Assembly: GCA_002189035.1 (NCBI GenBank)
Contig: NEEC01000326.1
Span: 1 to 33,202 of the forward strand
Length of the DNA stretch: 33,202 nucleotides
From: Utricularia gibba
Lineage: Eukaryota > Streptophyta > Magnoliopsida > Lamiales > Lentibulariaceae
Reading direction: 5' to 3'
The position numbers were made by a program, and so were the translations under genes. The notes under the pieces are model-generated. The model was not told the DNA's origin. It ran no database searches and saw nothing but the letters and a program-made list of their open reading frames with translations. This document shows, in pieces, positions 1,235 through 28,200 of the stretch; position 1 is the stretch's first letter, and the number at the start of each line of letters is the position of its first letter.

Positions 1235-1538
1235 GGTCAACCGGATGCAAATCGATTAAAAAAATGATGCATTTGTTTAAATTGCGATATCACGTGCACC
1301 CACATGATTTTTTTCAACAACTTACTTTATACTTGAGGAGGCGGTGGGTGCACTGGAACGGGACAAAGGTAAGGTTTGGCTTGCGCCGAGAGTTAGTTGT
1401 AGCCCAAATAAAGTGATGTATTTATTATCGTTCGGTTTTCGGGGCTGCCTACATGGTTTTTCAAGGAACCGCTTCTCGTTTTGTGGCGCCAGTCTCGCTG
1501 GAACTTGGTCCTTGACCCCGATTCTGTATGGCTCATGA
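1235..1538 (+). repeat. Monomer 5, short subtype with two linked deletions
   Basis: This copy reads GGCGGTGGGTGCACTGG, lacking CTTGG-type bases after GCGGT, and further on GTAGCCCAAATAAAG, lacking the GAC of CCCGAC. The same pair recurs in monomers 28 (8372-8678), 36 (10853-11156) and 47 (14200-14486). It is one of the best cases of two separate indels inherited together. Confidence 0.7.
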
Positions 1539-4500: not shown

Positions 4501-5893
4501 CAAATAAAGTGATGTATTTTTATCGTTCGGTTTTCGGGGGCTGCCTACATGGTTTTTCAAGGAACCGCTTCTCGTTTTGTGGCGGCCAGTCTCGCTGGGA
4601 ACTTGGTCCTTGACCCCGATTCTGTATGGCTCATGAGGTCAACCGGATGCAAATCGATTAAAAAAAATGATGCATTTGTTTAAATTGCGATATCACGTGC
4701 ACCCCACATGATTTTTCAACAACTTACTTTATACTTGAGGAGGCGGTCTTGGGTGCACCTGAACGGGACAAAGGTAAGGTTTGGCTTGCGCCGAGAGTTA
4801 GTTGTAGCCCGACAAATAAAGTGATGTATTTATTATCGTTCGGTTTTCGGGGGCTGCCTACATGGTTTTTCAAGGAACCGCTTCTCGTTTTGTGGCGCCA
4901 GTCTCGCTGGGAACTTGGTCCTTGACCCCGATTCTGTATGGCTCATGAGGTCAACCGGATGGAAATCGATTAAAAAAAATGATGCATTTGTTTAAATTGC
5001 GATATCACGTGCACCCCACATGATTTTTTCAACAACTTACTTTATACTTGAGGAGGCGGTCTTGGGTGCAGCTGGAACGGGACAAAGGTAAGGTTTGGCT
5101 TGCGCGAGAGTTAGTTGTAGCCCGACAAATAAAGTGATGTATTTATTATCGTTCGGTTTTCGGGGCTGCCTACATGGTTTTTCAAGGAACCGCTTCTCGT
5201 TTTGTGGCGGCCAGTCTCGCTGGGAACTTGGTCCTTGACCCCGATTCTGTATGGCTCATGAGGTCAACCGGATGCAAATCGATTAAAAAAAATGATGCAT
5301 TTGTTTAAATTGCGATATCACGTGCACCCCACATGATTTTTTCAACAACTTACTTTATACTTGAGGAGGCGTCTTGGGGTGCACTGGAACGGGACAAAGG
5401 TAAGGTTTGGCTTGCGCGAGAGTTAGTTGTAGCCCGACAAATAAAGTGATGTATTTATTATCGTTCGGTTTTCGGGGGCTGCCTACATGGTTTTTCAAGG
5501 AACCGCTTCTCGTTTTGTGGCGGCCAGTCTCGCTGGGAACTTGGTCCTTGACCCCGATTCTGTATGGCTCATGAGGTCAACCGGATGCAAATCGATTAAA
5601 AAAAATGATGCATTTGTTTAAATTGCGATATCACGTGCACCCCACATGATTTTTCAACAACTTACTTTATACTTGAGGAGGCGGTCTTGGGGTGCACTGG
5701 AACGGGACAAAGGTAAGGTTTGGCTTGCGCGAGAGTTAGTTGTAGCCCGACAAATAAAGTGATGTATTTATTATCGTTCGGTTTTCGGGGCTGCCTACAT
5801 GGTTTTTCAAGGAACCGCTTCTTTTGTGGCGGCCAGTCTCGCTGGGAACTTGGTCCTTGACCCCGATTCTGTATGGCTCATGAGGTCAACCGG

Positions 5894-5901
5894 ATGCAAA
5901 T
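5894..5901 (+). promoter_or_regulatory. Octamer-like ATGCAAAT string in each monomer
   Basis: Exact ATGCAAAT sits 10 bases after the start of nearly every unit. In animals this is the canonical POU-domain octamer. In other eukaryotes it has no such assigned meaning, and in an array it is copied along with the unit, so its number says nothing about function. Four units read ATGGAAAT instead (starts 4949, 9297, 26822, 30530). I list it only as a recognisable string. Confidence 0.3.
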
Positions 5902-5949
5902 CGATTAAAAAAAATGATGCATTTGTTTAAATTGCGATATCACGTGCAC
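5900..5949. other. Cluster of six 6-bp palindromes in each monomer
   Basis: Within 50 bp lie ATCGAT (5900-5905), ATGCAT (5917-5922), TTTAAA (5926-5931), GATATC (5936-5941), CACGTG (5941-5946) and GTGCAC (5944-5949). The last three overlap in a chain. Random sequence would give about one 6-bp palindrome per 64 positions, so six is an excess. The cluster recurs in nearly every copy. The CACGTG member is lost in CATGTG copies and in copies with small deletions at this point. CACGTG is the core of E-box/G-box sites for bHLH and bZIP proteins; whether anything binds here is unknown. Confidence 0.75.
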
Positions 5950-6107
5950 CCCACATGATTTTTTCAACAACTTACTTTATACTTGAGGAGGCGGTCTTGG
6001 GGTGCACTTGAACGGGACAAAGGTAAGGTTTGGCTTGCGCCGAGAGTTAGTTGTAGCCCGACAAATAAAGTGATGTATTTATTATCGTTCGGTTTTCGGG
6101 GCTGCCT
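5941..6107 (+). repeat. Indel-rich ~167-bp block of the unit (example copy)
   Basis: Most copy-to-copy differences fall here. They lie in CACGTGCACCCC, the T5-T7 run before CAAC, GAGGAGGCGGTCTTGGGG, the spacer between GTGCA and GGGAC (CTGGAAC, CCTGAAC, CCTTGAAC, CTTGGAAC, GCTGGAAC or AAC), GCGCCGAG, CCCGACAAA, TTTATTATC and the G4/G5 run before CTGCC. Longer stretches between these sites, such as GGTAAGGTTTGGCTTGC, are stable. The diagnostic subtypes used for the higher-order repeats come from this block. Confidence 0.75.
6020..6028 (+). other. Splice-donor-like AAG|GTAAGG in each monomer
   Basis: AAGGTAAGG matches the general eukaryotic 5' splice-site consensus (MAG|GTRAGT) at eight of nine positions and is preserved in almost every copy. 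I see no matching acceptor with a good polypyrimidine tract and CAG in a fixed place, and no coding exon. It would matter only if the array is transcribed on this strand. Chance is a sufficient explanation. Confidence 0.2.
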
Positions 6108-6187
6108 ACATGGTTTTTCAAGGAACCGCTTCTCGTTTTGTGGCGGCCAGTCTCGCTGGGAACTTGGTCCTTGACCCCGATTCTGTA
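6031..6187 (+). repeat. Half-unit B of reference monomer
   Basis: This 157-bp half runs from TGGCTTGCGCCGAGAG to ACCCCGATTCTGTA. It matches half A at TGGCT, CAAAT, TGATG-ATTT-TT, ACATGGTTTTTCAA, GGCGG and CTGGGAAC. It lacks most of the A8 tract and the palindrome chain. Its first part varies at GCGCCGAG (also GCGCGAG, GCGAG, GCCGAG), at CCCGACAAA (also CCGGCAAA, CCGCAAA, CCCAAA), at TATTTATTATC (also TATTTTTATC, TATTTATATC) and at the G4/G5 run. Its second part, from ACATGG on, is almost invariant across the window. Confidence 0.7.
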
Positions 6188-6253
6188 TGGCTCATGAGGT
6201 CAACCGGATGCAAATCGATTAAAAAAATGATGCATTTGTTTAAATTGCGATAT
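6108..6253 (+). repeat. Near-invariant ~146-bp block of the unit (example copy)
   Basis: From ACATGGTTTTTCAAGG through the unit boundary to TTGCGATAT of the next copy, almost every monomer in the window is identical. The recurrent exceptions are GCGGCCAG versus GCGCCAG, CTGGG versus CTGG, CCCC versus CCC before GATTCTG, and A-run length (7-9). Substitutions are rare, for example GCTGCCAG near 31710 and 32648, and ATGGAAAT. The block covers the end of half B and the start of half A, so it crosses the half boundary. Its length is close to that of a nucleosome core, which may be coincidence. Confidence 0.7.
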
Positions 6254-8371
6254 CACGTGCACCCCACATGATTTTTCAACAACTTACTTTATACTTGAGG
6301 AGGCGGTCTTGGGGCACCTGAACGGACAAAGGTAAGGTTTGGCTTGCGCCGAGAGTTAGTTGTAGCCCGGCAAATAAAGTGATGTATTTATTATCGTTCG
6401 GTTTTCGGGGGCTGCCTACATGGTTTTTCAAGGAACCGCTTCTCGTTTTGTGGCGGCCAGTCTCGCTGGGAACTTGGTCCTTGACCCCGATTCTGTATGG
6501 CTCATGAGGTCAACCGGATGCAAATCGATTAAAAAAAATGATGCATTTGTTTAAATTGCGATATCACGTGCACCCCACATGATTTTTTCAACAACTTACT
6601 TTATACTTGAGGAGGCGTCTTGGGGTGCACAACGGGACAAAGGTAAGGTTTGGCTTGCCGAGAGTTAGTTGTAGCCCGACAATAAAGTGATGTATTTATT
6701 ATCGTTCGGTTTTCGGGGCTGCCTACATGGTTTTTCAAGGAACCGCTTCTCGTTTTGTGGCGCCAGTCTCGCTGGGAACTTGGTCCTTGACCCCGATTCT
6801 GTATGGCTCATGAGGTCAACCGGATGCAAATCGATTAAAAAAATGATGCATTTGTTTAAATTGCGATATCACGTGCACCCCACATGATTTTTTCAACAAC
6901 TTACTTTATACTTGAGGAGGCGGTCTTGGGTGCACTGGAACGGGACAAAGGTAAGGTTTGGCTTGCGCCGAGAGTTAGTTGTAGCCCGACAAATAAAGTG
7001 ATGTATTTATTATCGTTCGGTTTTCGGGGCTGCCTACATGGTTTTTCAAGGAACCGCTTCTCGTTTTGTGGCGGCCAGTCTCGCTGGGAACTTGGTCCTT
7101 TGACCCCGATTCTGTATGGCTCATGAGGTCAACCGGATGCAAATCGATTAAAAAAATGATGCATTTGTTTAAATTGCGATATCACGTGCACCCCATGATT
7201 TTTTCAACAACTTACTTTATACTTGAGGAGGCGGTCTTGGGTGCACTTGGAACGGGACAAAGGTAAGGTTTGGCTTGCGCCAGAGTTAGTTGTAGCCCGA
7301 CAAATAAAGTGATGTATTTATTATCGTTCGGTTTTCGGGGCTGCCTACATGGTTTTTCAAGGAACCGCTTCTCGTTTTGTGCGGCCAGTCTCGCTGGGAA
7401 CTTGGTCCTTGACCCCGATTCTGTATGGCTCATGAGGTCAACCGGATGCAAATCGATTAAAAAAAATGATGCATTTGTTTAAATTGCGATATCACGTGCA
7501 CCCCACATGATTTTTTCAACAACTTACTTTATACTTGAGGAGGCGGTCTTGGGGTGCACCTGAACGGGACAAAGGTAAGGTTTGGCTTGCCGAGAGTTAG
7601 TTGTAGCCCGCAAATAAAGTGATGTATTTATTATCGTTCGGTTTTTCGGGGGCTGCCTACATGGTTTTTCAAGGAACCGCTTCTCGTTTTGTGGCGCCAG
7701 TCTCGCTGGGAACTTGGTCCTTGACCCGATTCTGTATGGCTCATGAGGTCAACCGGATGCAAATCGATTAAAAAAAATGATGCATTTGTTTAAATTGCGA
7801 TATCATGTGCACCCCACATGATTTTTTCAACAACTTACTTTATACTTGAGAGGCGGTCTTGGGTGCACTGAACGGACAAAGGTAAGGTTTGGCTTGCGCC
7901 GAGAGTTAGTTGTAGCCCGACAAATAAAGTGATGTATTTATTATCGTTCGGTTTTCGGGGCTGCCTACATGGTTTTTCAAGGAACCGCTTCTCGTTTTGT
8001 GGCGGCCAGTCTCGCTGGGAACTTGGTCCTTGACCCCGATTCTGTATGGCTCATGAGGTCAACCGGATGCAAATCGATTAAAAAAATGATGCATTTGTTT
8101 AAATTGCGATATCACGTGCACCCCACATGATTTTTTTCAACAACTTACTTTATACTTGAGGAGGCGGTCTTGGGGTGCACTGGAACGGGACAAAGGTAAG
8201 GTTTGGCTTGCGCCGAGAGTTAGTTGTAGCCCGACAAATAAAGTGATGTATTTATTATCGTTCGGTTTTCGGGGGCTGCCTACATGGTTTTTCAAGGAAC
8301 CGCTTCTCGTTTTGTGGCGGCCAGTCTCGCTGGGAACTTGGTCCTTGACCCCGATTCTGTATGGCTCATGA

Positions 8372-8678
8372 GGTCAACCGGATGCAAATCGATTAAAAAA
8401 AATGATGCATTTGTTTAAATTGCGATATCACGTGCACCCCACATGATTTTTTCAACAACTTACTTTATACTTGAGGAGGCGGTGGGTGCACTGGAACGGG
8501 ACAAAGGTAAGGTTTGGCTTGCGCCGAGAGTTAGTTGTAGCCAAATAAAGTGATGTATTTATTATCGTTCGGTTTTCGGGGGCTGCCTACATGGTTTTTC
8601 AAGGAACCGCTTCTCGTTTTGTGGCGGCCAGTCTCGCTGGGAACTTGGTCCTTGACCCCGATTCTGTATGGCTCATGA
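8372..8678 (+). repeat. Monomer 28, short subtype with two linked deletions
   Basis: It has GGCGGTGGGTGCACTGG and GTAGCCAAATAAAG. The following copy (start 8679) has GTGCAAACGGG, lacking the CTGG spacer bases. The same order of subtypes, short type then AAACGGG type, appears again at monomers 36-37, eight units (about 2.48 kb) further on. Confidence 0.65.
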
Positions 8679-10852
8679 GGTCAACCGGATGCAAATCGAT
8701 TAAAAAAAATGATGCATTTGTTTAAATTGCGATATCACGTGCACCCCATGATTTTTTCAACAACTTACTTTATACTTGAGGAGGCGGTCTTGGGGTGCAA
8801 ACGGGACAAAGGTAAGGTTTGGCTTGCGCCGAGAGTTAGTTGTAGCCCGACAAATAAAGTGATGTATTTTATCGTTCGGTTTTCGGGGGCTGCCTACATG
8901 GTTTTTCAAGGAACCGCTTCTCGTTTTGTGGCGGCCAGTCTCGCTGGGAACTTGGTCCTTGACCCCGATTCTGTATGGCTCATGAGGTCAACCGGATGCA
9001 AATCGATTAAAAAAATGATGCATTTGTTTAAATTGCGATATCACGTGCACCCCACATGATTTTTCAACAACTTACTTTATACTTGAGGAGGCGGTCTTGG
9101 GTGCACCTGAACGGGACAAAGGTAAGGTTTGGCTTGCGCCGAGAGTTAGTTGTAGCCCGACAAATAAAGTGATGTATTTATTATCGTTCGGTTTTCGGGG
9201 GCTGCCTACATGGTTTTTCAAGGAACCGCTTCTCGTTTTGGGCGGCCAGTCTCGCTGGGAACTTGGTCCTTGACCCCGATTCTGTATGGCTCATGAGGTC
9301 AACCGGATGGAAATCGATTAAAAAAAATGATGCATTTGTTTAAATTGCGATATTGCACCCCACATGATTTTTTTCAACAACTTACTTTATACTTGAGGAG
9401 GCGGTCTTGGGGTGCACTGGAACGGGACAAAGGTAAGGTTTGGCTTGCGCGAGAGTTAGTTGTAGCCCGACAAATAAAGTGATGTATTTATTATCGTTCG
9501 GTTTTCGGGGCTGCCTACATGGTTTTTCAAGGAACCGCTTCTCGTTTTGTGGCGGCCAGTCTCGCTGGGAACTTGGTCCTTGACCCCGATTCTGTATGGC
9601 TCATGAGGTCAACCGATGCAAATCGATTAAAAAAAATGATGCATTTGTTTAAATTGCGATATGTGCACCCCACATGATTTTTTCAACAACTTACTTTATA
9701 CTTGAGGAGGCGGTCTTGGGTGCACCTGAACGGACAAAGGTAAGGTTTGGCTTGCGCCGAGAGTTAGTTGTAGCCCGACAAATAAAGTGATGTATTTATT
9801 ATCGTTCGGTTTTCGGGGCTGCCTACATGGTTTTTCAAGGAACCGCTTCTCGTTTTGTGGCGGCCAGTCTCGCTGGGAACTTGGTCCTTGACCCCGATTC
9901 TGTATGGCTCATGAGGTCAACCGGATGCAAATCGATTAAAAAAAATGATGCATTTGTTTAAATTGCGATATCACGTGCACCCCCATGATTTTTTCAACAA
10001 CTTACTTTATACTTGAGGAGGCGGTCTTGGGGTGCACCTGAACGGACAAAGGTAAGGTTTGGCTTGCGCCGAGAGTTAGTTGTAGCCCGACAAATAAAGT
10101 GATGTATTTATTATCGTTCGGTTTTCGGGGCTGCCTACATGGTTTTTCAAGGAACCGCTTCTCGTTTTGTGGCGGCCAGTCTCGCTGGGAACTTGGTCCT
10201 TGACCCCGATTCTGTATGGCTCATGAGGTCAACCGGATGCAAATCGATTAAAAAAAATGATGCATTTGTTTAAATTGCGATATCACGTGCACCCCACATG
10301 ATTTTTTCAACAACTTACTTTATACTTGAGGAGGCGTCTTGGGTGCACCTGAACGGGACAAAGGTAAGGTTTGGCTTGCGCCGAGAGTTAGTTGTAGCCC
10401 GACAAATAAAGTGATGTATTTATTATCGTTCGGTTTTCGGGGCTGCCTACATGGTTTTTCAAGGAACCGCTTCTCGTTTTGTGGCGGCCAGTCTCGCTGG
10501 GAACTTGGTCCTTGACCCCGATTCTGTATGGCTCATGAGGTCAACCGGATGCAAATCGATTAAAAAAAATGATGCATTTGTTTAAATTGCGATATCACGT
10601 GCACCCCACATGATTTTTTCAACAACTTACTTTATACTTGAGGAGGCGGTCTTGGGGTGCACTGGAACGGGACAAAGGTAAGGTTTGGCTTGCGCCGAGA
10701 GTTAGTTGTAGCCCGACAAATAAAGTGATGTATTTATTATCGTTCGGTTTTCGGGGCTGCCTACATGGTTTTTCAAGGAACCGCTTCTCGTTTTGTGGCG
10801 GCCAGTCTCGCTGGAAACTTGGTCCTTGACCCCGATTCTGTATGGCTCATGA

Positions 10853-11156
10853 GGTCAACCGGATGCAAATCGATTAAAAAAATGATGCATTTGTTTAAAT
10901 TGCGATCACGTGCACCCCACATGATTTTTTCAACAACTTACTTTATACTTGAGGAGGCGGTGGGTGCACTGAACGGGACAAAGGTAAGGTTTGGCTTGCG
11001 CCGAGAGTTAGTTGTAGCCCAAATAAAGTGATGTATTTATTATCGTTCGGTTTTCGGGGGCTGCCTACATGGTTTTTCAAGGAACCGCTTCTCGTTTTGT
11101 GGCGGCCAGTCTCGCTGGGAACTTGGTCCTTGACCCCGATTCTGTATGGCTCATGA
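10853..11156 (+). repeat. Monomer 36, short subtype with two linked deletions
   Basis: It has GGCGGTGGGTGCACTG and GTAGCCCAAATAAAG, and is followed at 11157 by a GTGCAAACGGG copy. It also reads GCGATCACGTG, having lost AT within GATATC. The pairing with the next unit repeats that of monomers 28-29. Confidence 0.65.
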
Positions 11157-11464
11157 GGTCAACCGGATGCAAATCGATTAAAAAAAATGATGCATTTGTT
11201 TAAATTGCGATATCACGTGCACCCCACATGATTTTTTTCAACAACTTACTTTATACTTGAGGAGGCGGTCTTGGGGTGCAAACGGGACAAAGGTAAGGTT
11301 TGGCTTGCGCCGAGAGTTAGTTGTAGCCCAAATAAAGTGATGTATTTATTATCGTTCGGTTTTCGGGGGCTGCCTACATGGTTTTTCAAGGAACCGCTTC
11401 TCGTTTTGTGGCGCCAGTCTCGCTGGGAACTTGGTCCTTGACCCCGATTCTGTATGGCTCATGA

Positions 11465-14400
11465 GGTCAACCGGATGCAAATCGATTAAAAAAAATGATG
11501 CATTTGTTTAAATTGCGATATCACGTGCACCCCACATGATTTTTTCAACAACTTACTTTATACTTGTCTTGGGTGCACCTGAACGGGACAAAGGTAAGGT
11601 TTGGCTTGCGCCGAGAGTTAGTTGTAGCCCGACAAATAAAGTGATGTATTTATTATCGTTCGGTTTTCGGGGCTGCCTACATGGTTTTTCAAGGAACCGC
11701 TTCTCGTTTTGTGGCGGCCAGTCTCGCTGGGAACTTGGTCCTTGACCCCGATTCTGTATGGCTCATGAGGTCAACCGGATGCAAATCGATTAAAAAAAAT
11801 GATGCATTTGTTTAAATTGCGATATCACGTGCACCCCACATGATTTTTTCAACAACTTACTTTATACTTGAGAGGCGGTCTTGGGCACTGGACAAAGGTA
11901 AGGTTTGGCTTGCGCCGAGAGTTAGTTGTAGCCCGACAAATAAAGTGATGTATTTATTATCGTTCGGTTTTCGGGGCTGCCTACATGGTTTTTCAAGGAA
12001 CCGCTTCTCGTTTTGTGGCGCCAGTCTCGCTGGGAACTTGGTCCTTGACCCGATTCTGTATGGCTCATGAGGTCAACCGGATGCAAATCGATTAAAAAAA
12101 TGATGCATTTGTTTAAATTGCGATATGCACCCCACATGATTTTTTCAACAACTTACTTTATACTTGAGGAGGCGGTCTTGGGTGCACTGGAACGGGACAA
12201 AGGTAAGGTTTGGCTTGCGAGTTAGTTGTAGCCCGACAAATAAAGTGATGTATTTATTATCGTTTTTTCGGGGGCTGCCTACATGGTTTTTCAAGGAACC
12301 GCTTCTCGTTTTGTGGCGGCCAGTCTCGCTGGGAACTTGGTCCTTGACCCCGATTCTGTATGGCTCATGAGGTCAACCGGATGCAAATCGATTAAAAAAA
12401 TGATGCATTTGTTTAAATTGCGATATCACGTGCACCACATGATTTTTTCAACAACTTACTTTATACTTGAGGAGGCGGTCTTGGGTGCACTGAACGGGAC
12501 AAAGGTAAGGTTTGGCTTGCGCCGAGAGTTAGTTGTAGCCCGACAAATAAAGTGATGTATTTATTATCGTTCGGTTTTCGGGGGCTGCCTACATGGTTTT
12601 TCAAGGAACCGCTTCTCGTTTTGTGGCGGCCAGTCTCGCTGGGAACTTGGTCCTTGACCCGATTCTGTATGGCTCATGAGGTCAACCGGATGCAAATCGA
12701 TTAAAAAAAATGATGCATTTGTTTAAATTGCGATATCACGTGCACCCCACATGATTTTTTCAACAACTTACTTTATACTTGAGGAGGCGGTCTTGGGTGC
12801 CGGGACAAAGGTAAGGTTTGGCTTGCGCCGAGAGTTAGTTGTAGCCCGACAAATAAAGTGATGTATTTATTATCGTTCGGTTTTCGGGGCTGCCTACATG
12901 GTTTTTCAAGGAACCGCTTCTCGTTTGTGGCGGCCAGTCTCGCTGGGAACTTGGTCCTTGACCCCGATTCTGTATGGCTCATGAGGTCAACCGATGCAAA
13001 TCGATTAAAAAAATGATGCATTTGTTTAAATTGCGATATCACGTGCACCCCACATGATTTTTTCAACAACTTACTTTCTTGAGGAGGCGGTCTTGGGTGC
13101 ACCTGAACGGACAAAGGTAAGGTTTGGCTTGCGCCGAGAGTTAGTTGTAGCCCGACAAATAAAGTGATGTATTTATTATCGTTCGGTTTTCGGGGGCTGC
13201 CTACATGGTTTTTCAACCGCTTCTCGTTTTGTGGCGGCCAGTCTCGCTGGGAACTTGTCCTTGACCCCGATTCTGTATGGCTCATGAGGTCAACCGGATG
13301 CAAATCGATTAAAAAAAATGATGCATTTGTTTAAATTGCGATATGTGCACCCACATGATTTTTTCAACAACTTACTTTATACTTGGGGAGGCGGTCTTGG
13401 GGTGCAGAACGGGACAAGGTAAGGTTTGGCTTGCCGAGAGTTAGTTGTAGCCCCACAATAAAGTGATAATTTTTATCGTTCGGTTTTCGGGCTGCCTACA
13501 TGGTTTTTCAAGGAACCGCTTCTCGTTTTGTGGCGGCCAGTCTCGCTGGGAACTTGGTCCTTTACCCCGATTCTGTATGGCTCATGAGGTCAACCGAATG
13601 CAAATCGATTAAAAAAAATGATGCATTTGTTTAAATTGCGATATCATGTGCACCCCACATGATTTTTTCAACAACTTACTTTATACTTGCGGTCTTGGGT
13701 GCACTGGAACGGGACAAAGGTAAGGTTTGGCTTGCGCCGAGAGTTAGTTGTAGCCGACAAATAAAGTGATGTATTTATTATCGTTCGGTTTTCGGGGCTG
13801 CCTACATGGTTTTTCAAGGAACCGCTTCTCGTTTTGTGGCGGCCAGTCTCGCTGGGAACTTGGTCCTTGACCCCGATTCTGTATGGCTCATGAGGTCAAC
13901 CGGATGCAAATCGATTAAAAAAAATGATGCATTTGTTTAAATTGCGATATCACGTGCACCCCACATGATTTTTTCAACAACTTACTTTATACTTGAGGCG
14001 GTCTTGGGGTGCAAACGGGACAAAGGTAAGGTTTGGCTTGCGCCGAGAGTTAGTTGTAGCCCGACAAATAAAGTGATGTATTTATATCGTTCGGTTTTCG
14101 GGGGCTGCCTACATGGTTTTTCAAGGAACCGCTTCTCGTTTTGTGGCGGCCAGTCTCGCTGGAACTTGGTCCTTGACCCCGATTCTGTATGGCTCATGAG
14201 GTCAACCGGATGCAAATCGATTAAAAAAATGATGCATTTGTTTAAATTGCGATATGTGCACCCCACATGATTTTTTCAACACTTACTTTATACTTGAGGA
14301 GGCGGTGGGTGCAAACGGGACAAAGGTAAGGTTTGGCTTGCGAGTTAGTTGTAGCCAAATAAAGTGATGTATTTATTATCGTTCGGTTTCGGGGGCTGCC

Positions 14401-14785
14401 TACATGGTTTTTCAAGGAACCGCTTCTCGTTTTGTGGCGTCTCGCTGGGAACTTGGTCCTTGACCCCGATTCTGTATGGCTCATGAGGTCAACCGGATGC
14501 AAATCGATTAAAAAAAATGATGCATTTGTTTAAATTGCGATATCACGTGCACCCCACATGATTTTTTCAACAACTTACTTTATACTTGGGAGGCGGTCTT
14601 GGGTGCAGAACGGGACAAAGGTAAGGTTTGGCTTGCGCGAGAGTTAGTTGTAGCCAATAAAGTGATGTATTTTTTCGTTCGGTTTTCGGGGCTGCCTACA
14701 TGGTTTTTCAAGGAACCGCTTCTCGTTTTGTGGCGCCAGTCTCGCTGGGAACTTGGTCCTTGACCCGATTCTGTATGGCTCATGA
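11465..14785 (+). repeat. Eroded block, monomers 38-48
   Basis: These eleven units average about 302 bp against about 310 bp for units 1-37. They carry larger and more numerous losses. Near 11566 AGGAGGCGG is missing. Near 11885 the CTTGGGCACTGGAC region is shortened. Near 12263 CGGT is lost. Near 13077 TATA is lost from TTTATACTT. Near 13217 AAGGA is lost. Monomer 47 (14200-14486, 287 bp) is the shortest, with gaps at GCGAGTT, TAGCCAAAT and GTGGCGTCTCG. The block runs directly into the mosaic zone. It could be an old, decaying part of the array or a poorly resolved consensus. Confidence 0.7.
14200..14486 (+). repeat. Monomer 47, shortest ordinary copy in the left subarray
   Basis: At 287 bp it combines the short-subtype pair (GGCGGTGGGTGCA and GTAGCCAAAT) with GTGCAAACGGG, GCGAGTTAG, a GATATGTGCACC form and loss of GCCAG after GTGGC. 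It appears to be a hybrid of the short subtype and the AAACGGG subtype, plus further losses. Confidence 0.6.
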
Positions 14786-15040
14786 GGTCAACCGGATGCA
14801 AATCGATTAAAAAAATGATGCATTTGTTTAAATTGCGATATCACGTGCACCCCACATGATTTTTTCAACAACTTACTTTATACTTGAGGAGGCGGTCTTG
14901 GGGCAAACGGACAAAGGTAAGGTTTGGCTTGCGCCGAGAGTTAGTTGTAGCCCGACAAATAAGTGATGATTTTTATCGTTCGGTTTTCGGGGCTGCCTAC
15001 ATGGTTTTTCAAGGAACCGCTTCTCGTTTTGTGGCGGCCA

Positions 15041-16075
15041 GGTCTTGGCTGGGAATTGGTTAGTTGTAGCCCACCCCGATTTTGTATGTATTTATTAGAG
15101 GTCGGTTTTCGGGGCTGCCTACATGGTTTTTCAAGGAACCGCTTCTCGTTTTGTGGCGGCCAGTCTCGCTGGGAACTTGGTCCTTGACCCCGATTCTGTA
15201 TGGCTCATGAGGTCAACCAAAAAAAATGATGCATTTGTTTAAATTGCGATATCATGTGCAAATGATGCATTTTTTTAAAACGTTACTTTATACTTGAGGA
15301 CCCCACATGATTCTTTTCAACAGTTGACTTTATACTTTCTTGGTGCACGGGACAAAGGTAAGGTTTGGCTTGCGCGAGAGTTAGTTGTAGCCCGACAAAT
15401 AAAGTGATGTATTTATTATCGTTCGGTTTTCGGGGCTGCCTACATGGTTTTTCAAGGAACCGCTTCTCGTTTTGTGGCGGCCAGTCTCGCTGGGAACTTG
15501 GTCCTTGACCCCGATTCTGTATGGCTCATGAGGTCAACCGGATGCAAATCGATTAAAAAAAATGATGCATTTGTTTAAATTGCGATATCACGATGCACTT
15601 GGTTTTCACTGATTTTTTCACATGGTTTTTCAAGGAACCGCTTCTCGTTTTGTCTTTAGTCTCATGAGGTCTGGGAACTGCACTTGAGAACCGACAAAGG
15701 TAAGGTTGGCTCATGAGGTTAAGCCCGATGCAAATAAAGATTAAAAAAAATGATGCATTTGTTTAAATTGCGATATGTGCACCCCACATGTTTTTTTTCG
15801 GAACAACTTACATGGTTTTTCAAGGAACCTACTCTGAGGTTTTGTGGCGGTCTTCTCGTGCTGGGAACTTGGTCCTTGACCCCGATTCTTGTATGGCTCA
15901 GAGTTAGTTGTAGCCCGACAAATAAAGTGATGTATTTATTATCGTTCGTTTTCGGGGGCTGCCGGATGCAAATTCGATTAAAACCGCTGATGCATTTGTT
16001 TAAATTGCGATATCACGTGCGGCCACCCTCGCTGGGATGATTTTTTTCAACAACCCCGACTCTGTATACTCATGA
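15041..16075 (+). repeat. Scrambled mosaic of unit fragments in two registers
   Basis: The unit order breaks down here. Starts remain recognisable at 15211 and 15532, and the next regular one is at 16076, giving intervals of 425 (from 14786), 321 and 544 bp. At 15041-15110 pieces alternate: GGTCTTGG, then CTGGGAATTGG, then TTAGTTGTAGCCC, then CCCCGATTTTGTATG, then TATTTATTA, then GTCGGTTTTC. Each register keeps its own order. At 15211-15345 the sequence re-enters earlier unit positions twice. At 15592-16075 blends such as GAGGTTAAGCCCGATGCAAA followed by TAAAGATTAAAA merge the homologous parts of halves A and B. No foreign DNA is seen. Either fine-scale rearrangement or a consensus built from out-of-phase reads would produce this. 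Confidence 0.85.
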
Positions 16076-19000
16076 GGTCAACCGGATGCAAATCGATTAA
16101 AAAAAATGATGCATTTGTTTAAATTGCGATATCACGTGCACCCCACATGATTTTTTCAACAACTTACTTTATACTTGAGGAGGCGGTCTTGGGTGCACCT
16201 TGAACGGACAAAGGTAAGGTTTGGCTTGCGCCGAGAGTTAGTTGTAGCCCGACAAATAAAGTGATGTATTTTATTATCGTTCGGTTTTCGGGGGCTGCCT
16301 ACATGGTTTTTCAAGGAACCGCTTCTCGTTTTGTGGCGGCCAGTCTCGCTGGGAACTTGGTCCTTGACCCCGATTCTGTATGGCTCATGAGGTCAACCGG
16401 ATGCAAATCGATTAAAAAAAATGATGCATTTGTTTAAATTGCGATATCACGTGCACCCCACATGATTTTTTCAACAACTTACTTTATACTTGAGGAGGCT
16501 GGGTGCACTGGAACGGGACAAAGGTAAGGTTTGGCTTGCGCGAGAGTTAGTTGTACAAATAAAGTGATGTATTTATTATCGTTCGGTTTTCGGGGCTGCC
16601 TACATGGTTTTTCAAGGAACCGCTTCTCGTTTTGTGGCGGCCAGTCTCGCTGGGAACTTGGTCCTTGACCCCGATTCTGTATGGCTCATGAGGTCAACCG
16701 GATGCAAATCGATTAAAAAAAATGATGCATTTGTTTAAATTGCGATATCATGTGCACCCCACATGATTTTTTCAACAACTTACTTTATACTTGGGAGGCG
16801 GTCTTGGGGTGCACCTTGAACGGGACAAAGGTAAGGTTTGGCTTGCGCCGAGAGTTAGTTATAGCCCGACAAATAAAGTGATGTATTTATTATCGTTCGG
16901 TTTTCGGGGCTGCCTACATGGTTTTTCAAGGAACCGCTTCTCGTTTTGTGGCGGCCAGTCTCGCTGGGAACTTGGTCCTTGACCCCGATTCTGTATGGCT
17001 CATGAGGTCAACCGGATGCAAATCGATTAAAAAAATGATGCATTTGTTTAAATTGCGATATCACGTGCACCCCACATGATTTTTTCAACAACTTACTTTA
17101 TACTTGAGGAGGCGGTCTTGGGTGCACCTGAACGGGACAAAGGTAAGGTTTGGCTTGCGCGAGAGTTAGTTGTAGCCCGACAAATAAAGTGATGTATTTA
17201 TTATCGTTCGGTTTTCGGGGGCTGCCTACATGGTTTTCAAGGAACCGCTTCTCGTTTTGTGGCGGCCAGTCTCGCTGGGAACTTGGTCCTTGACCCCGAT
17301 TCTGTATGGCTCATGAGGTCAACCGGATGCAAATCGATTAAAAAAAATGATGCATTTGTTTAAATTGCGATATCATGCACCCCACATGATTTTTTCAACA
17401 ACTTACTTTATACTTGAGGAGGCGGTCTTGGGTGCTTGAACGGACAAAGGTAAGGTTTGGCTTGCGCCGAGAGTTAGTTGTAGCCCGACAAATAAAGTGA
17501 TGTATTTATTATCGTTCGGTTTTCGGGGGCTGCCTACATGGTTTTTCAAGGAACCGCTTCTCGTTTTTGTGGCGGCCAGTCTCGCTGGGAACTTGGTCCT
17601 TGACCCCGATTCTGTATGGCTCATGAGGTCAACCGGATGCAAATCGATTAAAAAAAATGATGCATTTGTTTAAATTGCGATATCACGTGCACCCCACATG
17701 ATTTTTTCAACAACTTACTTTATACTTGAGGAGGCGTCTTGGGTGCACCTGGAACGGGACAAAGGTAAGGTTTGGCTTGCGCCGAGAGTTAGTTGTAGCC
17801 CGCAAATAAAGTGATGTATTTATTATCGTTCGGTTTTCGGGGCTGCCTACATGGTTTTTCAAGGAACCGCTTCTCGTTTTGTGGCGGCCAGTCTCGCTGG
17901 AACTTGGTCCTTGACCCCGATTCTGTATGGCTCATGAGGTCAACCGGATGCAAATCGATTAAAAAAAAATTGCATTTGTTTAAATTGCGATATCACGTGC
18001 ACCCCACATGATTTTTTTCAACAACTTACTTTATACTTGGGGAGGCGGTCTTTGGGTGCACTTGGAACGGGACAAAGGTAAGGTTTGGCTTGCGCCGAGA
18101 GTTAGTTGTAGCCCGCAAATAAAGTGATGTATTTATTATCGTTCGGTTTTCGGGGCTGCCTACATGGTTTTTCAAGGAACCGCTTCTCGTTTTGTGGCGG
18201 CCAGTCTCGCTGGGAACTTGGTCCTTGACCCCGATTCTGTATGGCTCATGAGGTCAACCGGATGCAAATCGATTAAAAAAATGATGCATTTGTTTAAATT
18301 GCGATATCACGTGCACCCCACATGATTTTTTCAACAACTTACTTTATACTTGAGGAGGCGGTCTTGGGTGCAGCTGACAAAGGTAAGGTTTGGCTTGCGC
18401 CGAGAGTTAGTTGTAGCCCGACAAATAAAGTGATGTATTTTTTATCGTTCGGTTTTCGGGGGCTGCCTACATGGTTTTTCAAGGAACCGCTTCTCGTTTT
18501 GTGGCGGCCAGTCTCGCTGGGAACTTGGTCCTTGACCCCGATTCTGTATGGCTCATGAGGTCAACCGGATGCAAATCGATTAAAAAAAATGATGCATTTG
18601 TTTAAATTGCGATATCGTGCACCCCACATGATTTTTTCAACAACTTACTTTATACTTGAGGAGGCGGTCTTGGGTGCACCTGGAACGGGACAAAGGTAAG
18701 GTTTGGCTTGCCCGAGAGTTAGTTGTAGCCCGGCAAATAAAGTGATGTATTTTTATCGTTCGGTTTTCGGGGGCTGCCTACATGGTTTTTCAAGGAACCG
18801 CTTCTCGTTTTGTGGCGGCCAGTCTCGCTGGGAACTTGGTCCTTGACCCCGATTCTGTATGGCTCATGAGGTCAACCGGATGCAAATCGATTAAAAAAAA
18901 TGATGCATTTGTTTAAATTGCGATATCACGTGCACCCCACATGATTTTTTCAACAACTTACTTTATACTTGGGGAGGCGTCTTGGGTGCACCTTGAACGG

Positions 19001-19079
19001 GACAAAGGTAAGGTTTGGCTTGCGCCGAGAGTTAGTTTAGCCCGACAAATAAAGTGATGTATTTATTATCGTTCGGTTT

Positions 19080-19086
19080 TCACCTA
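19080..19086 (+). repeat. Internal replacement in monomer 61
   Basis: Where other copies read CGGTTTTCGGGGCTGCCTACATGG, this one reads CGGTTTTCACCTACATGG. The G-run and CTG are lost in a single step. It is one of the few changes immediately before the near-invariant block. Confidence 0.6.
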
Positions 19087-20113
19087 CATGGTTTTTCAAG
19101 GAACCGCTTCTCGTTTGTGGCGGCCAGTCTCGCTGGGAACTTGGTCCTTGACCCCGATTCTGTATGGCTCATGAGGTCAACCGGATGCAAATCGATTAAA
19201 AAAAATGATGCATTTGTTTAAATTGCGATATCATGTGCACCCCACATGATTTTTTCAACAACTTACTTTATACTTGAGGAGGCGGTCTTGGGTGCAGCTG
19301 AACGGGACAAAGGTAAGGTTTGGCTTGCGCCGAGAGTTAGTTGTAGCCCGCAAATAAAGTGATGTATTTATTATCGTTCGGTTTTCGGGGCTGCCTACAT
19401 GGTTTTTCAAGGAACCGCTTCTCGTTTTTGTGGCGGCCAGTCTCGCTGGGAACTTGGTCCTTGACCCCGATTCTGTATGGCTCATGAGGTCAACCGGATG
19501 CAAATCGATTAAAAAAAATGATGCATTTGTTTAAATTGCGATATCACGTGCACCCCACATGATTTTTTTCAACAACTTACTTTATACTTGGGAGGCGGTC
19601 TTGGGGTGCACTGGAACGGGACAAAGGTAAGGTTTGGCTTGCGCCGAGAGTTAGTTGTAGCCCGCAAATAAAGTGATGTATTTATTATCGTTCGGTTTTC
19701 GGGGCTGCCTACATGGTTTTTCAAGGAACCGCTTCTCGTTTTGTGGCGGCCAGTCTCGCTGGGAACTTGGTCCTTGACCCCGATTCTGTATGGCTCATGA
19801 GGTCAACCGGATGCAAATCGATTAAAAAAAATGATGCATTTGTTTAAATTGCGATATCACGTGCACCCCACATGATTTTTTCAACAACTTACTTTATACT
19901 TGAGGAGGCGGTCTTGGGTGCACCTGAACGGGACAAAGGTAAGGTTTGGCTTGCGCCGAGAGTTAGTTGTAGCCCGCAAATAAAGTGATGTATTTATTAT
20001 CGTTCGGTTTTCGGGGGCTGCCTACATGGTTTTTCAAGGAACCGCTTCTCGTTTTGTGGCGGCCAGTCTCGCTGGGAACTTGGTCCTTGACCCCGATTCT
20101 GTATGGCTCATGA

Positions 20114-20250
20114 GGTCAACCGGATGCAAATCGATTAAAAAAAATGATGCATTTGTTTAAATTGCGATATGACGTGCACCCCACATGATTTTTTTCAACA
20201 ACTTACTTTATACTTGGGGAGGCGGTCTTGGGGTGCACCTTGAACGGGAC
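20114..20250 (+). repeat. Truncated monomer 65 (137 bp)
   Basis: The copy stops after CTTGAACGGGAC, and the next base begins GGATGCAAATCG of the following copy. About 187 bp are missing, from unit position 134 to position 8 of the next unit. The junction at 20250/20251 has at most one or two bases of microhomology. The removed piece covers most of half B and leaves two A halves in succession. It also carries the uncommon GATATGACGTG form and the CTTGGGGAGG form. Confidence 0.85.
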
Positions 20251-23069
20251 GGATGCAAATCGATTAAAAAAAATGATGCATTTGTTTAAATTGCGATATC
20301 ATGTGCACCCCACATGATTTTTTCAACAACTTACTTTATACTTGAGGAGGCGGTCTTGGGGTGCAGCTGGAACGGGACAAAGGTAAGGTTTGGCTTGCGC
20401 GAGAGTTAGTTGTAGCCCGGCAAATAAAGTGATGTATTTATTATCGTTCGGTTTTCGGGGGCTGCCTACATGGTTTTTCAAGGAACCGCTTCTCGTTTTG
20501 TGGCGGCCAGTCTCGCTGGGAACTTGGTCCTTGACCCCGATTCTGTATGGCTCATGAGGTCAACCGGATGCAAATCGATTAAAAAAAATGATGCATTTGT
20601 TTAAATTGCGATATCACGTGCACCCCACATGATTTTTTCAACAACTTACTTTATACTTGAGGAGGCGGTCTTTGGGTGCACTGAACGGACAAAGGTAAGG
20701 TTTGGCTTGCGCCAGAGTTAGTTGTAGCCCGGCAAATAAAGTGATGTATTTATTATCGTTCGGTTTTCGGGGGCTGCCTACATGGTTTTTCAAGGAACCG
20801 CTTCTCGTTTTGTGGCGGCCAGTCTCGCTGGGAACTTGGTCCTTGACCCCGATTCTGTATGGCTCATGAGGTCAACCGGATGCAAATCGATTAAAAAAAA
20901 ATGATGCATTTGTTTAAATTGCGATATCACGTGCACCCCACATGATTTTTTTCAACAACTTACTTTATACTTGGGGAGGCGGTCTTGGGTGCACCTTGAA
21001 CGGGACAAAGGTAAGGTTTGGCTTGCGCCGAGAGTTAGTTGTAGCCCGACAAATAAAGTGATGTATTTATTATCGTTCGGTTTTCGGGGGCTGCCTACAT
21101 GGTTTTTCAAGGAACCGCTTCTCGTTTTGTGGCGGCCAGTCTCGCTGGGAACTTGGTCCTTGACCCCGATTCTGTATGGCTCATGAGGTCAACCGGATGC
21201 AAATCGATTAAAAAAAATGATGCATTTGTTTAAATTGCGATATCATGTGCACCCCACATGATTTTTTCAACAACTTACTTTATACTTGAGGAGGCGGTCT
21301 TGGGTGCACTGGAACGGGACAAAGGTAAGGTTTGGCTTGCGCCGAGAGTTAGTTGTAGCCCGGCAAATAAAGTGATGTATTTATTATCGTTCGGTTTTCG
21401 GGGGCTGCCTACATGGTTTTTCAAGGAACCGCTTCTCGTTTTGTGGCGGCCAGTCTCGCTGGGAACTTGGTCCTTGACCCCGATTCTGTATGGCTCATGA
21501 GGTCAACCGGATGCAAATCGATTAAAAAAAATGATGCATTTGTTTAAATTGCGATATCACGTGCACCCCACATGATTTTTTTCAACAACTTACTTTATAC
21601 TTGAGGAGGCGGTCTTGGGGTGCACTGGAACGGGACAAAGGTAAGGTTTGGCTTGCGCCGAGAGTTAGTTGTAGCCCGGCAAATAAAGTGATGTATTTAT
21701 TATCGTTCGGTTTTCGGGGGCTGCCTACATGGTTTTTCAAGGAACCGCTTCTCGTTTTGTGGCGGCCAGTCTCGCTGGGAACTTGGTCCTTGACCCCGAT
21801 TCTGTATGGCTCATGAGGTCAACCGGATGCAAATCGATTAAAAAAAAATGATGCATTTGTTTAAATTGCGATATCACGTGCACCCCATGATTTTTTCAAC
21901 AACTTACTTTATACTTGAGGAGGCGGTCTTGGGGTGCACCTGAACGGGACAAAGGTAAGGTTTGGCTTGCGCCGAGAGTTAGTTGTAGCCCCACAAATAA
22001 AGTGATGTATTTATTATCGTTCGGTTTTCGGGGCTGCCTACATGGTTTTTCAAGGAACCGCTTCTCGTTTTGTGGCGGCCAGTCTCGCTGGGAACTTGGT
22101 CCTTGACCCCGATTCTGTATGGCTCATGAGGTCAACCGGATGCAAATCGATTAAAAAAAATGATGCATTTGTTTAAATTGCGATATCATGTGCACCCACA
22201 TGATTTTTTCAACAACTTACTTTATACTTGAGGAGGCGGTCTTGGGGTGCAGCTGGAACGGGACAAAGGTAAGGTTTGGCTTGCGCGAGAGTTAGTTGTA
22301 GCCCGACAAATAAAGTGATGTATTTATTATCGTTCGGTTTTCGGGGGCTGCCTACATGGTTTTTCAAGGAACCGCTTCTCGTTTTGTGGCGGCCAGTCTC
22401 GCTGGGAACTTGGTCCTTGACCCCGATTCTGTATGGCTCATGAGGTCAACCGGATGCAAATCGATTAAAAAAAATGATGCATTTGTTTAAATTGCGATAT
22501 CACGTGCACCCCACATGATTTTTTCAACAACTTACTTTATACTTGAGGAGGCGGTCTTTGGGTGCACTTGGAACGGGACAAAGGTAAGGTTTGGCTTGCG
22601 CCGAGAGTTAGTTGTAGCCCCAAATAAAGTGATGTATTTTTATCGTTCGGTTTTCGGGGGCTGCCTACATGGTTTTTCAAGGAACCGCTTCTCGTTTTGT
22701 GGCGCCAGTCTCGCTGGGAACTTGGTCCTTGACCCCGATTCTGTATGGCTCATGAGGTCAACCGGATGCAAATCGATTAAAAAAAATGATGCATTTGTTT
22801 AAATTGCGATATCGTGCACCCCACATGATTTTTTTCAACAACTTACTTTATACTTGAGGAGGCGGTCTTGGGGTGCACTTGAACGGGACAAAGGTAAGGT
22901 TTGGCTTGCGCCGAGAGTTAGTTGTAGCCCGACAAATAAAGTGATGTATTTATTATCGTTCGGTTTTCGGGGGCTGCCTACATGGTTTTTCAAGGAACCG
23001 CTTCTCGTTTTGTGGCGGCCAGTCTCGCTGGGAACTTGGTCCTTGACCCCGATTCTGTATGGCTCATGA
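20251..23069 (+). repeat. Trimeric higher-order repeat, three ~940-bp blocks
   Basis: The C-to-T variant CATGTG recurs at 20300, 21244, 22187 and 23127, spaced 944, 943 and 940 bp, which is three units. The units with T at 20251 and 22130 share GTGCAGCTGG with GCGCGAG. The units that follow them (20558, 22444) share TCTTTGGGTGCA. The third units (20870, 22756) share CTTGAACGGG, and CTTGGGGAGG is seen in 20870. The middle block (21187-21816) follows the T spacing but not all other markers. The same three-step order also appears at 24313-25253. Confidence 0.7.
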
Positions 23070-24312
23070 GGTCAACCGGATGCAAATCGATTAAAAAAAA
23101 TGATGCATTTGTTTAAATTGCGATATCATGTGCACCCCACATGATTTTTTCAACAACTTACTTTATACTTGAGGAGGCGGTCTTGGGGTGCACCTTGAAC
23201 GGGACAAAGGTAAGGTTTGGCTTGCGCCGAGAGTTAGTTGTAGCCCCACAAATAAAGTGATGTATTTATATCGTTCGGTTTTCGGGGCTGCCTACATGGT
23301 TTTTCAAGGAACCGCTTCTCGTTTTGTGGCGCCAGTCTCGCTGGGAACTTGGTCCTTGACCCCGATTCTGTATGGCTCATGAGGTCAACCGGATGCAAAT
23401 CGATTAAAAAAAATGATGCATTTGTTTAAATTGCGATATCACGTGCACCCCACATGATTTTTTCAACAACTTACTTTATACTTGAGGAGGCGGTCTTGGG
23501 TGCACTGGAACGGGACAAAGGTAAGGTTTGGCTTGCGCGAGAGTTAGTTGTAGCCCGACAAATAAAGTGATGTATTTTTTTATCGTTCGGTTTTCGGGGG
23601 CTGCCTACATGGTTTTTCAAGGAACCGCTTCTCGTTTTGTGGCGGCCAGTCTCGCTGGGAACTTGGTCCTTGACCCCGATTCTGTATGGCTCATGAGGTC
23701 AACCGGATGCAAATCGATTAAAAAAAATGATGCATTTGTTTAAATTGCGATATCATGCACCCCACATGATTTTTTCAACAACTTACTTTATACTTGAGGA
23801 GGCGGTGGGTGCACTTGGAACGGGACAAAGGTAAGGTTTGGCTTGCGCCGAGAGTTAGTTGTAGCCCGGCAAATAAAGTGATGTATTTTTTATCGTTCGG
23901 TTTTCGGGGGCTGCCTACATGGTTTTTCAAGGAACCGCTTCTCGTTTTGTGGCGGCCAGTCTCGCTGGGAACTTGGTCCTTGACCCCGATTCTGTATGGC
24001 TCATGAGGTCAACCGGATGCAAATCGATTAAAAAAAATGATGCATTTGTTTAAATTGCGATATCACGTGCACCCCACATTTTTTTCAACAACTTACTTTA
24101 TACTTGGGGAGCGGTCTTGGGGTGCACTTGAACGGGACAAAGGTAAGGTTTGGCTTGCGCCGAGAGTTAGTTGTAGCCCAAAATAAAGTGATGTATTTAT
24201 TATCGTTCGGTTTTCGGGGCTGCCTACATGGTTTTTCAAGGAACCGCTTCTCGTTTTGTGGCGGCCAGTCTCGCTGGGAAGGTCCTTGACCCCGATTCTG
24301 TATGGCTCATGA

Positions 24313-25253
24313 GGTCAACCGGATGCAATCGATTAAAAAAAATGATGCATTTGTTTAAATTGCGATATCATGTGCACCCCACATGATTTTTTCAACAACT
24401 TACTTTATACTTGAGGAGGCGGTCTTGGGGTGCAGCTGGAACGGGACAAAGGTAAGGTTTGGCTTGCGCGAGAGTTAGTTGTAGCCCGGCAAATAAAGTG
24501 ATGTATTTATTATCGTTCGGTTTTCGGGGGCTGCCTACATGGTTTTTCAAGGAACCGCTTCTCGTTTTGTGGCGGCCAGTCTCGCTGGGAACTTGGTCCT
24601 TGACCCCGATTCTGTATGGCTCATGAGGTCAACCGGATGCAAATCGATTAAAAAAAATGATGCATTTGTTTAAATTGCGATATCACGTGCACCCCACATG
24701 ATTTTTTCAACAACTTACTTTATACTTGAGGGCGGTCTTGGGTGCACTTGGAACGGGACAAAGGTAAGGTTTGGCTTGCGCCGAGAGTTAGTTGTAGCCC
24801 GGCAAATAAAGTGATGTATTTTTTTATCGTTCGGTTTTCGGGGGCTGCCTACATGGTTTTTCAAGGAACCGCTTCTCGTTTTGTGGCGGCCAGTCTCGCT
24901 GGGAACTTGGTCCTTGACCCCGATTCTGTATGGCTCATGAGGTCAACCGGATGCAAATCGATTAAAAAAAATGATGCATTTGTTTAAATTGCGATATCAC
25001 GTGCACCCCACATGATTTTTTCAACAACTTACTTTATACTTGGGGAGGCGGTCTTGGGGTGCACCTTGAACGGGACAAAGGTAAGGTTTGGCTTGCGCGA
25101 GAGTTAGTTGTAGCCCGACAAATAAAGTGATGTATTTATTATCGTTCGGTTTTCGGGGGCTGCCTACATGGTTTTTCAAGGAACCTTCTCGTTTTGTGGC
25201 GGCCAGTCTCGCTGGGAACTTGGTCCTTGACCCCGATTCTGTATGGCTCATGA
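24313..25253 (+). repeat. Further copy of the trimeric block
   Basis: Unit 24313 has CATGTG, GTGCAGCTGG, GCGCGAG and CCGGCAAA. Unit 24627 has CACGTG, GTGCACTTGG, GCGCCGAG and CCGGCAAA. Unit 24941 has CTTGGGGAGG, GTGCACCTTGAAC and CCCGACAAA. This is the same succession as in 20251-21186. Between the two regions the spacing of the T variant drops to two units (23127 to about 23754 to about 24369), so blocks of two and three units are mixed. Confidence 0.65.
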
Positions 25254-28200
25254 GGTCAACCGGATGCAAATCGATTAAAAAAAATGATGCATTTGTTTAA
25301 ATTGCGATATCACGTGCACCCCACATGATTTTTTCAACAACTTACTTTATACTTGAGGAGGCGGTCTTTGGGTGCACTGGAACGGGACAAAGGTAAGGTT
25401 TGGCTTGCGCCGAGAGTTAGTTGTAGCCCGGCAAATAAAGTGATGTATTTATTATCGTTCGGTTTTCGGGGGCTGCCTACATGGTTTTTCAAGGAACCGC
25501 TTCTCGTTTTTGGCGGCCAGTCTCGCTGGGAACTTGGTCCTTGACCCCGATTCTGTATGGCTCATGAGGTCAACCGGATGCAAATCGATTAAAAAAAATG
25601 ATGCATTTGTTTAAATTGCGATATCACGTGCACCCCACATGATTTTTTCAACAACTTACTTTATACTTGAGGAGGCGGTCTTGGGGTGCACTGGAACGGG
25701 ACAAAGGTAAGGTTTGGCTTGCGCGAGAGTTAGTTGTAGCCCGGCAAATAAAGTGATGTATTTATTATCGTTCGGTTTTCGGGGGCTGCCTACATGGTTT
25801 TTCAAGGAACCGCTTCTCGTTTTGTGGCGCCAGTCTCGCTGGGAACTTGGTCCTTGACCCCGATTCTGTATGGCTCATGAGGTCAACCGGATGCAAATCG
25901 ATTAAAAAAAATGATGCATTTGTTTAAATTGCGATATCACGTGCACCCCACATGATTTTTTCAACAACTTACTTTATACTTGAGGAGGCGGTCTTGGGGT
26001 GCACCTTGAAACGGGACAAAGGTAAGGTTTGGCTTGCGCCGAGAGTTAGTTGTAGCCCGACAAATAAAGTGATGTATTTATTATCGTTCGGTTTTCGGGG
26101 CTGCCTACATGGTTTTTCAAGGAACCGCTTCTCGTTTTGTGGCGGCCAGTCTCGCTGGGAACTTGGTCCTTGACCCCGATTCTGTATGGCTCATGAGGTC
26201 AACCGGATGCAAATCGATTAAAAAAAATGATGCATTTGTTTAAATTGCGATATCACGTGCACCCCACATGATTTTTTCAACAACTTACTTTATACTTGAG
26301 GAGGCGGTCTTGGGGTGCACTGGAACGGGACAAAGGTAAGGTTTGGCTTGCGCGAGAGTTAGTTGTAGCCCGACAAATAAAGTGATGTATTTATTATCGT
26401 TCGGTTTTCGGGGGCTGCCTACATGGTTTTTCAAGGAACCGCTTCTCGTTTTGTGGCGGCCAGTCTCGCTGGGAACTTGGTCCTTGACCCCGATTCTGTA
26501 TGGCTCATGAGGTCAACCGGATGCAAATCGATTAAAAAAAATGATGCATTTGTTTAAATTGCGATATCACGTGCACCCACATGATTTTTTTCAACAACTT
26601 ACTTTATACTTGAGGAGGCGGTCTTGGGTGCACTTGGAACGGGACAAAGGTAAGGTTTGGCTTGCGCCGAGAGTTAGTTGTAGCCCAAATAAAGTGATGT
26701 ATTTATTATCGTTCGGTTTTCGGGGGCTGCCTACATGTTTTTCAAGGAACCGCTTCTCGTTTTGTGGCGGCCAGTCTCGCTGGGAACTTGGTCCTTGACC
26801 CCGATTCTGTATGGCTCATGAGGTCAACCGATGGAAATCGATTAAAAAAAATGATGCATTTGTTTAAATTGCGATATCACGTGCACCCACATGATTTTTT
26901 CAACAACTTACTTTATACTTGAGGAGGCGGTCTTGGGGTGCAGCTGGAACGGGACAAAGGTAAGGTTTGGCTTGCGCGAGAGTTAGTTGTAGCCCGGCAA
27001 ATAAAGTGATGTATTTTTATCGTTCGGTTTTCGGGGGCTGCCTACATGGTTTTTCAAGGAACCGCTTCTCGTTTTGTGGCGGCCAGTCTCGCTGGGAATT
27101 GGTCCTTGACCCCGATTCTGTATGGCTCATGAGGTCAACCGGATGCAAATCGATTAAAAAAAATGATGCATTTGTTTAAATTGCGATATCACGTGCACCC
27201 CACATGATTTTTTTCAACAACTTACTTTATACTTGGGAGGCGGTCTTGGGGTGCACTTGAACGGGACAAAGGTAAGGTTTGGCTTGCGCCGAGAGTTAGT
27301 TGTAGCCCCACAATAAAGTGATGTATTTATTATCGTTCGGTTTTCGGGGCTGCCTACATGGTTTTTCAAGGAACCGCTTCTCGTTTTGTGGCGGCCAGTC
27401 TCGCTGGGAACTTGGTCCTTGACCCCGATTCTGTATGGCTCATGAGGTCAACCGGATGCAAATCGATTAAAAAAAAATGATGCATTTGTTTAAATTGCGA
27501 TATCATGTGCACCCCACATGATTTTTTCAACAACTTACTTTATACTTGAGGAGGCGGTCTTGGGGTGCACTGGAACGGGACAAAGGTAAGGTTTGGCTTG
27601 CGCGAGAGTTAGTTGTAGCCCAAATAAAGTGATGTATTTATTATCGTTCGGTTTTCGGGGCTGCCTACATGGTTTTTCAAGGAACCGCTTCTCGTTTTGT
27701 GGCGGCCAGTCTCGCTGGGAACTTGGTCCTTGACCCCGATTCTGTATGGCTCATGAGGTCAACCGGATGCAAATCGATTAAAAAAAATGATGCATTTGTT
27801 TAAATTGCGATATCACGTGCACCCACATGATTTTTTCAACAACTTACTTTATACTTGAGGAGGCGGTCTTGGGTGCACCTTGGAACGGGACAAAGGTAAG
27901 GTTTGGCTTGCGCCGAGAGTTAGTTGTAGCCCACAAATAAAGTGATGTATTTATTATCGTTCGGTTTTCGGGGGCTGCCTACATGGTTTTTCAAGGAACC
28001 GCTTCTCGTTTTGTGGCGGCCAGTCTCGCTGGGAACTTGGTCCTTGACCCCGATTCTGTATGGCTCATGAGGTCAACCGGATGCAAATCGATTAAAAAAA
28101 ATGATGCATTTGTTTAAATTGCGATATCATGTGCACCCCACATGATTTTTTTCAACAACTTACTTTATACTTGAGAGGCGGTCTTGGGTGCACTGGAACG

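Follow-up and report, generated by a model that had tools for sequence, protein, structure and literature searches.

An ordered two-register mosaic in a dimeric satellite array of Utricularia gibba, most likely an artefact of assembly

The window analysed here, a whole contig of 33,202 bases (NEEC01000326.1) from Utricularia gibba, consists of one head-to-tail array of a satellite unit of 313–315 bp, whose regular order gives way at 15–16 kb to short blocks that alternate between two registers of the unit. The pattern is truly in the sequence, and it is most likely absent from the plant itself. Taking a merge of reads and other faults jointly, the mosaic is very probably an assembly artefact of some kind, and we regard it as probable that the artefact is specifically a consensus merge of out-of-phase reads. 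A preliminary description of this DNA had left the choice between such a merge and real exchange undecided; the merge is now favoured because the registers are ordered, a simulated half-unit shift reproduces that order, the sampled joins are unique, the left flank carries almost only deletions, and the same satellite is scrambled in other contigs. Conversely, the data speak against template switching to random places, and patchy conversion appears improbable.

The array and one of its regular units are as follows:
1–33,202, forward strand: satellite array, unit of 313–315 bp, about 105 copies, reported as tandem repeat rows of 65.4, 32.2 and 8.3 copies
16,083–16,397, forward strand: sample regular unit on the right side of the mosaic, counted from CGGATGC, its two halves diverged and about 157 bp each

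Satellite DNA is recognized by homogeneous head-to-tail copies over many kb, and the window holds about 105 of them. The unit represents an old dimer with homologous halves, as the preliminary description had proposed: aligned to itself half a turn away, it gave 66% identity over 289 columns and a score of 69, whereas 40 shuffles scored −0.3 on average (standard deviation 13) and 35 at most. With this half-to-half identity the array resembles dimeric plant satellites in being a head-to-tail repeat of a 313–315 bp unit whose two halves, each about 157 bp, have diverged, the likeness being to that kind of satellite in general and to no named family.

In the genome (100,091,633 bases in 516 contigs), the unit is matched at least 425 times. 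Those listed fall in 11 contigs of 14.7–43.6 kb, to which a search with a 481-base query from the mosaic adds two; the listed contigs carrying the satellite are small and apparently unplaced. No RNA family was found in positions 13,000–18,000 or in four more satellite stretches. The telomere word TTTAGGG occurs at 560 places genome-wide, and those listed include the starts of contigs C1–C3 and a site near 5.347 Mb of C3; the nematode telomere word had zero matches in the genome search. The plant-specific NAM domain has 140 matches in this genome and none in 14 control genomes, and the 5S genes form arrays whose unit measures about 545–548 bp. The putative centromeres of U. gibba are described as devoid of satellite repeats (PMC8333044), and its long-read assembly was produced with HGAP at 88-fold coverage (N50 3.4 Mb, 581 contigs, genome of 82 Mb; PMC5793159).

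We parsed the window against the 315-nt unit under a model that permits jumps. The parse was collinear in 1–15,058 and 16,053–20,249, with short blocks between; altogether it comprised 24 blocks and 23 joins, of which 20 fall within 15,059–16,053. To the eye, which set the limits given below, the mosaic resolves into three patches:
15,041–15,101, forward strand: mosaic patch 1, an interleaving of two registers at a parsed offset of about 122
15,218–15,342, forward strand: mosaic patch 2, pieces inserted from a register some 40 bp off, with no alternation of halves A and B
15,594–16,068, forward strand: mosaic patch 3, the bulk of the alternation, registers 99–156 bp apart (modulo 315)

The 20 joins measure, signed and modulo 315, −122, +115, −115, +15, −36, +38, −41, +138, −145 and +143 for the first ten, and +41, −45, +153, −156, +135, −152, +99, −117, +108 and −110 for the remainder. 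The preliminary description had the alternation bridging roughly 120–200 bp; 14/20 joins measure 99–156 bp and the other six 15–45 bp. It had also described a single mosaic zone over 15,041–16,075: the parse is indeed broken there, but the array is regular between the three patches, and 15,300–15,598 forms a single parsed block of 299 bases. Apart from this block, the parsed blocks span 8–133 bases, more than the 6–30 bp first claimed, and pieces of 5–8 bases, under the resolution of the parser, are visible by eye. The mosaic occupies 994 bases between unit positions 277 and 285, compared to an arithmetically expected 952 had phase been kept.

The joins exceed chance, and the parser invents none in simulated arrays of comparable error: 90 arrays in which deletions reached at most 6%, and insertions and substitutions 3% each, gave 0 joins, and 30 arrays with higher error gave a mean of 0.1 and a maximum of 2 joins per 1,260 bases. 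Three words spanning joins (39, 34 and 46 bases), two from patch 3 and one from patch 1, were sampled in all; allowing up to three mismatches, each was found once in the genome, within the window. The matches listed for the 481-base query, which comes from patch 3, were ordinary array copies at about 75% identity or less; owing to a candidate limit this search missed patch 3 itself, and it has no bearing on uniqueness.

The preliminary description had further claimed that each register keeps its own order, and this holds. We assessed it with a return test, devised after the blocks had been seen, which asks whether the next-but-one block resumes ahead in its own register. Forward returns were found in 17/19 cases, a count matched by none of 20,000 uniform draws. 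When two cases whose middle blocks measured 133 and 299 bases were omitted, so that only middle blocks of at most 120 bases remained, 15/17 returns were forward, compared to 4.1 expected, and in 10/17 the skip equalled the length of the other block within 15 bases, compared to 1.7 expected. These forward returns and length-matched skips show that the two registers advance side by side, which is what a consensus merge would be recognized by. In patch 3 each register is in order, and the offset between the two drifts: a strict two-track model of constant offset scored 392 there, against 527 for jumps. Its gains in patches 1 and 2 (21 and 18) resembled those obtained in a pair of control stretches (17 and 22); the model thus adds nothing in these patches and was dropped. 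As to the claim that joins lie at homologous positions of the halves, 7/20 fall within 30 bp and 11/20 within 45 bp of the homologous position (for the latter, P about 0.012 relative to uniform destinations); the remaining joins, and patch 2, do not conform.

The mechanism that we consider probable would run as follows. Noisy long reads from the array would be stacked, part of them shifted by about half a unit; given the 66% identity of the halves, a read so displaced would still be alignable, the consensus caller would face near-ties and could draw columns from either register, and the output would be short alternating blocks that preserve the order of each register.

We mimicked this process with a toy consensus caller that scores a link as its count minus half the coverage, which we take to be the scheme of falcon_sense, and supplied it with noisy simulated reads. 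In-phase reads alone gave 0 joins in 24 runs. By contrast, a mixture of four in-phase reads and six half-unit-shifted reads gave 6.8 joins per consensus (12 runs), with 58/58 returns ordered and matched within 15 bases; in 8 further runs, 26/26 returns were ordered. Equal mixtures (2+2, 3+3 and 5+5) produced few joins, 0.5–0.8 per consensus, with all 12 returns matching. Shifts of 40, 80, 122, 200 and 240 bp also yielded some joins, with forward returns in 5/34 cases and a match within 15 bases in 1/34. As only the half-unit shift gives ordered alternation, patch 3 is well explained, in contrast to patch 2 and some of patch 1. That the real assembler acted like the toy caller, and what read technology supplied it, we infer.

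The array to the left of the mosaic is collinear and rich in deletions:
11,001–15,040, forward strand: left flank, collinear, with 33, 34, 38 and 62 deletions per kb in successive bins and few or no substitutions and insertions

The last bin before the mosaic has 62 deletions, 0 substitutions and 0 insertions. Elsewhere, deletions number 11–24 per kb in 1–11 kb, 17–19 after 16 kb and, from 20 kb on, 3–16, except for 19 in the bin that holds a break at 30.3 kb. This pattern is unlike ordinary divergence among copies and suggests a loss of consensus quality. We also asked whether the flank deletions could be votes cast between the two half registers. Such votes should favour columns that differ between the halves, but in 11,000–15,040 the deletions show no preference for them (62/1,653 versus 105/2,554, odds ratio 0.91, p 0.57), leaving this idea unsupported. 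When homopolymer columns only are considered, a modest excess of deletions at half-differing columns appears in 1–11,000 (p 0.01) and in 20,250–33,202 (p 0.039). The flank deletions favour columns that are variable among copies, as do those in the other parts of the window. Low coverage and mixed monomer variants were rejected as sources of the deletion-only flank: simulations of both also yielded insertions and substitutions, and the flank was not reproduced.

The flank bears on another assembly fault, namely that the poor-quality end of one pre-assembled read was joined to another at about 15–16 kb through a misaligned seam. We regard this as possible, if rather unlikely. In its favour, the deletions climb from 11 to 15 kb and drop at once to 17–19 per kb past 16 kb; they are also unlike half-register votes, and the offsets of patches 1 and 2 are not produced by a half-unit mixture. 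However, a seam by itself does not predict two registers advancing side by side, and no joins arose when low coverage alone was simulated.

The mosaic had been described as the only place where the repeat grammar fails, which proved incorrect: the window contains two other breaks, and many are found in other contigs.
20,121–20,378, forward strand: second grammar break, 129 bp present twice, unit position passing from 127 to 1 at 20,249/20,250
30,310–30,612, forward strand: third grammar break, one irregular unit with end skips of 42 and 19 positions and 13 inserted bases

These breaks account for the three joins of the window beyond the mosaic, at 20,250, 30,310 and 30,613. The second break is either a true part-unit duplication or a contig seam. 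The deletion rate per kb drops at 20,249/20,250, with 72 deletions in 16,060–20,249 and 149 in 20,250–33,202.

Beyond the window, we examined 14 comparison stretches, which are parts of contigs picked for carrying the satellite. Ten of them contain 167 joins and the other four 175, that is, 342 joins in 126,431 bases. Scrambling of the satellite is thus common, and it is uneven among contigs (1 to 88 joins per stretch); the most scrambled stretch, C260:28000-37999, has 88 joins in 10 kb and lacks two-register order. Two-register order as a general trait of the scrambled satellite in this assembly was considered and rejected: forward returns amounted to 67/226 in the 14 stretches, compared to 57.1 expected, and matches within 15 bases to 19/226, compared to 22.4 expected. 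The ordered form was seen in the mosaic and in 0 of these 14 stretches. Across 130 one-kilobase bins, joins correlate with deletions (rho 0.42) and insertions (0.44), and not with substitutions (0.05); deletions were not significantly higher in jump-free bins adjoining scrambled ones (p 0.22). A 5S array showed only 2 joins, both small, over 15,000 bases that were readable. A part of it, C223:21001-22500, is rich in deletions, with 52 deletions, 5 substitutions and 4 insertions relative to its unit.

The consensus merge of out-of-phase reads therefore has to be weighed on both sides. For it speak the order of the registers, the homology of the halves, the 4:6 mixture in the toy caller, the three unique join words, the deletion-only left flank, the scrambled stretches of this satellite in other contigs and the tracking of deletions and insertions, not substitutions, by the joins. 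Against it stand the indifference of the flank deletions to half-differing columns, the unordered outcome of the simulations at the offsets of patches 1 (about 122) and 2 (about 40), the few joins from equal mixtures, the defeat of the strict two-track model in patch 3, the scrambled stretches elsewhere that are without two-register order, the deletion-only flank that was not reproduced, the result for jump-free neighbouring bins and the near-regular 5S array. Tandem repeats in draft long-read assemblies suffer consensus and collapse errors, and the present case is similar in that the array is too long for read placement and the contigs that carry the satellite are small, unplaced, indel-rich and scrambled. 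It differs in that the mosaic merges two registers in order, which the other 14 stretches do not.

Two biological readings remain to be set against the merge. The first is patchy conversion between half-units, in which short tracts were copied from half to half with the register kept. We consider it improbable, and equally doubtful is the related notion that the mosaic is a frozen step of satellite homogenization, with fine-grained real exchange between the dimer halves in tracts of tens of bases. Registers advancing side by side are what conversion of aligned halves would produce, the halves are 66% identical, and the 7/20 joins within 30 bp of the homologous column are consistent with it, but the other 13/20 lie farther off. 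In addition, conversion would have kept the length, and the 994 bases depart from the phase-keeping 952; no second copy of the three sampled joins was found; and the many tracts of tens of bases per kilobase are well below the usual reported size, conversion tracts being usually reported as far longer. The mosaic thus resembles gene conversion or template switching between repeats in alternating two related templates, each in order, and departs from them in its joins mostly off the homologous column, its changed length and its very short tracts. The second reading, a series of template switches at short homologies as DNA was replicated or a break repaired, would account for many short blocks at a single site whose sampled joins occur once in the genome, but is highly improbable: the joins do not lead to random places, 17/19 returns resuming ahead in the same register, and such switching would not be expected to leave 4 kb of flank decaying through deletions.

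Were the mosaic real, exchange tracts would be much shorter than commonly assumed. If it is instead a consensus merge of out-of-phase reads, as we think probable, a dimeric unit is what eases such register-alternating errors, and the return test, in which a register resumes once it has skipped the length of the other block, provides a cheap screen for them. Satellite biology read from draft long-read contigs may accordingly mislead and calls for caution, since consensus calling can mimic patchy conversion.
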